DNA of 29,285 nucleotides. Origin: Thermodesulfobium sp. 4217-1. Lineage in GTDB: Bacteria > Thermodesulfobiota > Thermodesulfobiia > Thermodesulfobiales > Thermodesulfobiaceae. Positions 28,845-29,285 of the stretch are shown here, piece by piece; positions within the stretch are counted from its first letter, which is position 1; each line of letters begins with the position of its first letter. Where the stretch lies: assembly GCF_039822205.1 (NCBI RefSeq), contig NZ_JBAGBW010000022.1, positions 1-29,285 on the forward strand. The letters run 5' to 3'. The notes under the pieces were generated by a model that saw only the letters and a program-made list of their open reading frames with translations, was not told the DNA's origin and ran no database searches. Made by a program: the position numbers and the translations under genes.

Positions 28845-28920
28845 TGGTAGCCCTATGGGGATTCGAACCCCAGTTACCGAGCTGAGAACCCGGCGTCCTG
28901 GTCCACTAGACGATAGGGCC
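28845..28920 (-). tRNA. trnE: tRNA-Glu (UUC)
   Basis: A full cloverleaf of 76 bases with encoded CCA. The anticodon loop reads GTTCTCA (anticodon TTC), the T-loop is GGTTCGAATCC and the D-arm is GTCTAGTGG. The acceptor stem pairs GGCCCTA with TAGGGCT, so the first pair is G1-U72 rather than G-C. Last tRNA of the array; a run of seven T follows the CCA. Confidence 0.95.
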
Positions 28921-28928
28921 AAAAAAAT

Positions 28929-29002
28929 TGGCTGGGGAAGATGGATTCGAACCACCACTACATGGTCCAGAGCCATGCGTCCTACCGTTAGACGATTCCC
29001 CA
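28929..29002 (-). tRNA. trnQ: tRNA-Gln (CUG)
   Basis: A 74-base cloverleaf with encoded CCA. Acceptor TGGGGAA pairs with TTCCCCA, the anticodon arm is CATGG-CTCTGGA-CCATG (anticodon CTG) and the T-arm carries GGTTCGAATCC. The U1-A72 end is typical of tRNA-Gln. It lies eight bases from tRNA-Glu and eleven from tRNA-Phe. Confidence 0.95.
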
Positions 29003-29013
29003 ATAAGGTAAGG

Positions 29014-29089
29014 TGGTGCCGAGGGCCGGAATCGAACCAGCGACACGAGGATTTTCAGTCCTCTGCTCTACCTACTGAGCTACCTCGGC
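29014..29089 (-). tRNA. trnF: tRNA-Phe (GAA)
   Basis: A 76-base cloverleaf with encoded CCA. Acceptor GCCGAGG pairs with CCTCGGC, the D-arm is GCTCAGTAGGTAGAGC, the anticodon arm is GAGGA-CTGAAAA-TCCTC (anticodon GAA) and the T-arm GGTTCGATTCC. First gene of the tRNA array. Confidence 0.96.
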
Positions 29090-29101
29090 GAATCATATAT
29101 A

Positions 29102-29130
29102 TTTATACATTATTTTAATTTAAAATGCAA
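29102..29130 (-). promoter_or_regulatory. Candidate promoter of the tRNA array
   Basis: Read on the minus strand, -35 TTGCAT and -10 TATAAA are 17 bases apart, and transcription would start about six bases before tRNA-Phe. It fills the short gap between the mobile-element end and the array. Confidence 0.5.
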
Positions 29131-29136
29131 GCCCTT

Positions 29137-29285
29137 GTGACATACTCCCACCACCTACGCTAACACTTAGAGGTGGAGGCTTCTTGGGACGTACCAGCTA
29201 ACGCCAGTATAACTACCAAGCTATCCCCGTTTGCCCAACGGTTCTATATTACTGTTAGGATATGCCAAGCAAGCGACAGCCTTCA
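29137..29285 (-). mobile_element. Right end of an IS200/IS605-family (TnpB-type) element, partial
   Basis: From about 29137 to the window edge the sequence changes to a more GC-rich type. Read on the minus strand it holds a hairpin with arms CCACCT and AGGTGG (plus two outer pairs past a T-T mismatch) and ends GTATGTCAC, the pattern I associate with the right ends of IS605-group elements. The frame ending at 29160 closes with TSQEASTSKC then a stop, similar to TnpB C-terminal tails, but it is open for only 27 codons. The tnpB body would lie beyond 29285. Identification rests on memory of such ends, without a search. Confidence 0.6.
29142..29285 (-). ncRNA. Possible 3' part of a TnpB guide RNA (omega-RNA)
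   Basis: In IS605-group elements the RNA that guides TnpB is made from the tnpB 3' end through the right end, with the guide taken from the flank. The hairpin at about 29145-29180 and its orientation fit this. If so, the guide would be the flank just outside the element, near 29117-29136. Inference from element type; transcription is not shown. Confidence 0.35.

Follow-up and report, generated by a model that had tools for sequence, protein, structure and literature searches.

The window analysed here, contig C22 in its entire length of 29,285 bases, almost certainly ends inside an insertion sequence of the IS200/IS605 family (IS605 group) that lies on the minus strand and of which the 3' end of tnpB and the right end (RE) with its guide-RNA scaffold are visible; this degree of confidence concerns the identification of the element and not its activity. 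The element is an ordinary further case of the known IS605-type kind; its remainder is lacking, as the assembly of this contig ends at 29285. The assembly consists of 2.0 Mb in 69 contigs with a stated completeness of 100%, and the genome belongs to a small group, its family being represented by four species in the species genome set. It extends the set of IS605-type elements to a small bacterial genus of low G+C that stands outside the Bacillota genera in which its relatives were found, and its scaffold is well bounded, with TTTAA as the predicted TAM. Its alignment with these relatives defines the scaffold, pseudoknot and target motif of the subgroup, the practical value of which is modest.

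The terminal stretch and the tnpB tail

Positions 29137-29285 have a G+C content of 49.7% as compared to 36.3% for the window as a whole, and a content this high is found in 1.7% of all 149-nt windows, hence the compositional difference from the flanks pointed out in the preliminary description is borne out. Read on the minus strand from 29285 to 29137, the stretch contains the last nine codons of tnpB, the stop codon, a short spacer and a 108-nt scaffold with the RE hairpin. It terminates in GTCAC at 29141-29137, with ...GTATGTCAC as its last bases. All features are listed in Table 1.

The tail of TnpB reads EGCRLLGIS-stop (29284-29255, minus strand) and has its counterpart in EGCRMLGIA-stop of the relatives' full-length TnpB. 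The nine codons and stop that are visible stand upstream of the right end in the same frame and at the same distance as in the full-length tnpB of these relatives. A TnpB-like tail frame had been described before and does exist, but not in the frame at 29160-29243 (minus strand; ...LALAGTSQEASTSKC), probably the one that had been noted by eye, which was rejected as tnpB frame because it is located in the RNA scaffold. The proposal of a resident nuclease element just outside the window is correct in that a minus-strand tnpB adjoins the edge with its last nine codons inside; the body of that gene, however, is absent from the assembly.

Table 1. Features of the element and of its surroundings in the window
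Feature	Position	Strand	Evidence
tnpB 3' end: final nine codons (EGCRLLGIS) and stop TAA (29257-29255), preceded by one base of an Asn codon (its last)	29255..29285	-	Relatives' TnpB EGCRMLGIA-stop/EGCRKLGIA-stop
5' part of tnpB (gene)	past contig end 29285	-	Contig boundary
Predicted guide RNA (omega RNA / reRNA) scaffold, 108 nt, also the transposon right end (RE)	29137..29244	-	Conserved in 15 other copies; ISDra2-like stems and pseudoknot
RE hairpin CCACCT/AGGTGG, presumed TnpA recognition hairpin and 3'-most guide-RNA stem	29147..29177	-	Folding, alignment
Right terminus GTCAC, whose GUC forms the pseudoknot with GGC (29233-29235) in the loop of stem 1	29137..29141	-	Divergence of copies, congener alignment
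Predicted guide AAGGGCTTGCATTTTAAATT (~16-20 nt), in the host DNA upstream of the tRNA operon	29117..29136	-	RE-adjacent position as in ISDra2 (PMC8612924)
Host genes for tRNA-Phe, tRNA-Gln and tRNA-Glu, downstream of the element, context only	28845..29089	-	

Boundaries and target site

The right boundary was fixed by means of the tRNA loci of two congeners, since their alignments to the window end at 29136 (G002), one base short of the element, and at 29133 (G001). In all copies the sequences part directly after GTCAC or GTCAA. The target motif can be read from the left ends: those of the relatives are preceded by TTTAA or TTTAT, and the left end of a deleted related element elsewhere in this genome, on C2, begins exactly after TTTAA, in a lyase gene that is uninterrupted in congener G003. 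Elements of the IS605 group carry subterminal hairpins at both ends in place of terminal inverted repeats, and they insert 3' of a short fixed target that is not duplicated. A left-end hairpin is seen in the relatives as well as in this deleted element; the RE hairpin is present in the window's copy.

A search for the left junction of this copy by means of gltB, the neighbour gene in the congeners, did not find it. The tRNA locus of G001 has gltB as its immediate neighbour, that of G002 has an unrelated transposase at this site, and in the present genome gltB is on contig C25 beside an unrelated gene that is cut by the contig end (L069:1666-2334, C25:25665-26333). The intergenic region between the tRNA locus and gltB has thus taken several insertions. 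With up to two mismatches allowed, the first 18 nt of the predicted guide have a single occurrence in this genome; elsewhere they are found only in two congeners, again at this locus.

Hairpin and scaffold structure

CCACCT at 29151-29156 and AGGTGG at 29171-29176 belong to a 46-nt hairpin of -14.0 kcal/mol, a value reached by 1.1% of all windows of this length when both strands are taken together. The strong hairpin reported near the GTCAC end is thus present, be it that its stability is modest when compared with dinucleotide shuffles (z -1.96), while the entire 122-nt stretch is ordinary in this respect (z -0.1). As a result, folding energy by itself would prove nothing about the end. It is conservation in other genera that lifts the end far above chance.

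The 108 nt of 29244-29137 were aligned in 16 sequences. The distant members L036 and L044 were excluded from the count of pairs; the MAFFT alignment containing them misplaced their 3' hairpin. The structure was modelled on the omega RNA of ISDra2 from Deinococcus radiodurans (PMC10097598) and consists of stem 1 with its pseudoknot, another two stems and the RE hairpin. Stems were matched to those of ISDra2 by position, which is our own assignment, and number-for-number identity applies only to the pseudoknot (bases -5 to -3). Both the ISDra2-type stems and the pseudoknot with bases -5 to -3 were found. Among the 16 sequences, 95.2% of the cells are paired in the ISDra2-like structure versus 36-47% in slid controls, and the pairs of the pseudoknot, between the stem-1 loop and the third to fifth last bases, are formed in all 16. 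Only one pair changes on both sides, and compensatory changes are no more frequent than in shuffles. The alignment therefore suggests a scaffold structure supported mainly by conservation, with weak covariation. When Rfam was searched, no family at gathering score covered 29137-29244; only three tRNAs passed.

The comparison with ISDra2 shows a number of likenesses. Its guide RNA likewise derives from the 3' end of tnpB and the RE, and an RE hairpin is found in both (PMC10097598, PMC8612924); as in the window's scaffold, bases -5 to -3 form a pseudoknot with the loop of stem 1 (PMC10097598). In ISDra2, however, the end of tnpB overlaps the scaffold (PMC10097598), whereas the window's tnpB stops before it, and the target is TTGAT rather than the TTTAA/TTTAT of the element group described here.

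Related elements in other genomes

An exact 27-nt word from the end was found at ten loci among 84,980 GTDB species genomes, in Paenibacillus, Sporomusa, 'Candidatus Formimonas' and MAGs named Bacillota, Dethiobacter and Clostridium. The 149-nt end gave 25 matches, complete or partial, in eight of those genomes, at 73-96% identity within alignments that are in some cases short, and upstream of many of these matches tnpB was found. Plasmid and phage collections were searched as well and gave zero matches.

Two intact full-length TnpB proteins, of 373 aa (L049) and 374 aa (L048), score 320-341 bits against the NCBIfam model NF040570 (guided_TnpB), which has a cutoff of 100; that of L049 matches ISDra2 TnpB (8bf8) over nearly its whole length with an E-value of 1e-61. 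In the relatives tnpB is preceded by an IS200-type (Y1) TnpA (L050; NF033573, E-value 4e-42), which is shortened or broken in several copies. Complete relatives have the order tnpA to tnpB (373-374 aa), which they share with ISDra2. The elements of Paenibacillus piri, P. mesophilus, Sporomusa sp. KB1 and 'Candidatus Formimonas warabiya' (L012-L021, plus further copies traced from these) have the same right end and scaffold as the window's element and, wherever tnpB is kept, the same TnpB tail. Some of them are complete and many lack tnpB, whereas in the window the element is truncated by the end of the contig. The occurrence of the same end beside tnpB in other genera supports the earlier proposal, a right end of IS605 type that includes the scaffold of a TnpB guide RNA, and makes it close to certain.

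ISAam1 TnpB has TTTAA as its TAM and consists of 369 aa (PMC11224200). It resembles the group in this motif and in size (369 as compared to 373-374 aa), and kinship with it is to be taken as a lead only.

Proposed mechanism

ISDra2 TnpA excises a single strand and inserts it 3' of the target, and TnpB with its reRNA has been proposed to cut the restored empty site, upon which the element is copied back (PMC8612924). By analogy with ISDra2 and the relatives, the bases of the window's right end may serve twice. In DNA, the RE hairpin would be bound by the Y1 transposase TnpA, which would excise the single strand and insert it next to TTTAA or TTTAT. In RNA, the same bases would form the scaffold of the TnpB guide RNA, with a guide of ~16-20 nt taken from the host DNA adjacent to the RE (AAGGGCTTGCATTTTAAATT). 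The predicted transcript would be bound by TnpB, and this complex would then cut those chromosomes which the element has left, at TTTAA plus guide, such that the element is copied back. That a working nuclease is encoded beside the window is a claim about equally liable to be false or true, because in relatives an intact tnpB is often missing beside this end.

Copies in this genome and alternative explanations

The preliminary description had staked its reading on the presence of further copies of the end in the genome, and both a second copy on C2 and a scar on C8 exist. The former stands at the end of C2 (162740-162855, continued by 39-40 nt past an inserted element) and is 98% identical over 155 nt. 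It has three differences with the window over 149 nt, two of which are in tnpB (AAT/AAC and TTG/CTG) and synonymous. The insertion, L006:4857-6347 (C2:162856-164346), belongs to the IS1634 family, encodes its transposase at L006:4875-6266 (minus strand), is flanked on both sides by the 7 nt ATATTAC and splits the copy between the tnpB stop and the scaffold. The scar is a bare 35-nt remainder of the right end at C8:55012-55046 (L007:5013-5047), between two genes; its core is flanked on both sides by AAACTATAAG.

There is an even chance that the window's copy is a dead relic, i.e. RE, scaffold and a stub of tnpB from which the body has been deleted or broken by insertion, with no nuclease produced from the locus. 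Such a relic would still be an IS605-type element, the question being one of activity. TnpB domain searches of the 2.0-Mb assembly detected no body of a window-type tnpB, nor does the assembly contain a Y1 TnpA, the 5' part of the window's element lying outside the assembled sequence. Furthermore, the sister copy is split and the C8 scar is bare, and among the other copies examined the full-length tnpB frame is uninterrupted in three only (L048, L049 and L052), the remaining ones being truncated, frameshifted, reduced to the RE, too diverged to be assessed or running off a contig. Right ends commonly outlast the loss of tnpB. Against a relic stands that the C2 copy ends at the same element base as the window's copy, where both contigs stop, which suggests an unresolved repeat of several indistinguishable copies rather than unique deletion junctions; yet the two ends are not identical. 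Also the fact that both coding differences between the copies are synonymous argues against it, though two changes prove little.

It is very unlikely that the right end is an independent guide RNA used in trans by the one other TnpB of the genome, which is of a different subgroup (C2:31506-32687, L010:2507-3688). Its frame is intact and encodes 393 aa, but over the C-terminal part the protein shares only ~34% identity with the TnpB family belonging to the window's end, and the right end of this other gene differs in sequence (ACAAGCCCCCGACTTTAGTCGTGGGGCAGTTGAC). As a rule, a guide RNA is read by the TnpB cognate to it. This other gene has its own right-end hairpin and is without tnpA in the assembly.

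Extremely doubtful is the idea that the scaffold would be read through into the tRNA-Phe-Gln-Glu operon on the same strand and that a TnpB-type protein with the guide, which matches the DNA upstream of this operon, would act on the tRNA promoter instead of in transposon upkeep, given that the TAM position at the locus is occupied by the right end itself. That the end is a chance hairpin or the terminator of the tRNA operon has practically no probability left, the homologous copies having refuted it. In its favour is a folding energy that lies only modestly below that of shuffles; against it, the end is conserved together with tnpB in other genera and is bounded against the congeners, and the hairpin precedes the tRNA genes, a position that rules out a terminator of their operon.

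The deleted IS605-type element on C2 (L006:4438-4717, C2:162437-162716, plus strand) has no transposon genes between its ends. Its left-end hairpin is found just after TTTAA and its right-end hairpin, which ends in TTCAC, ~280 bp further on. The gene it interrupts is methylisocitrate-lyase-like and whole in G003; the right flank does not continue this gene, which hints at a rearrangement.
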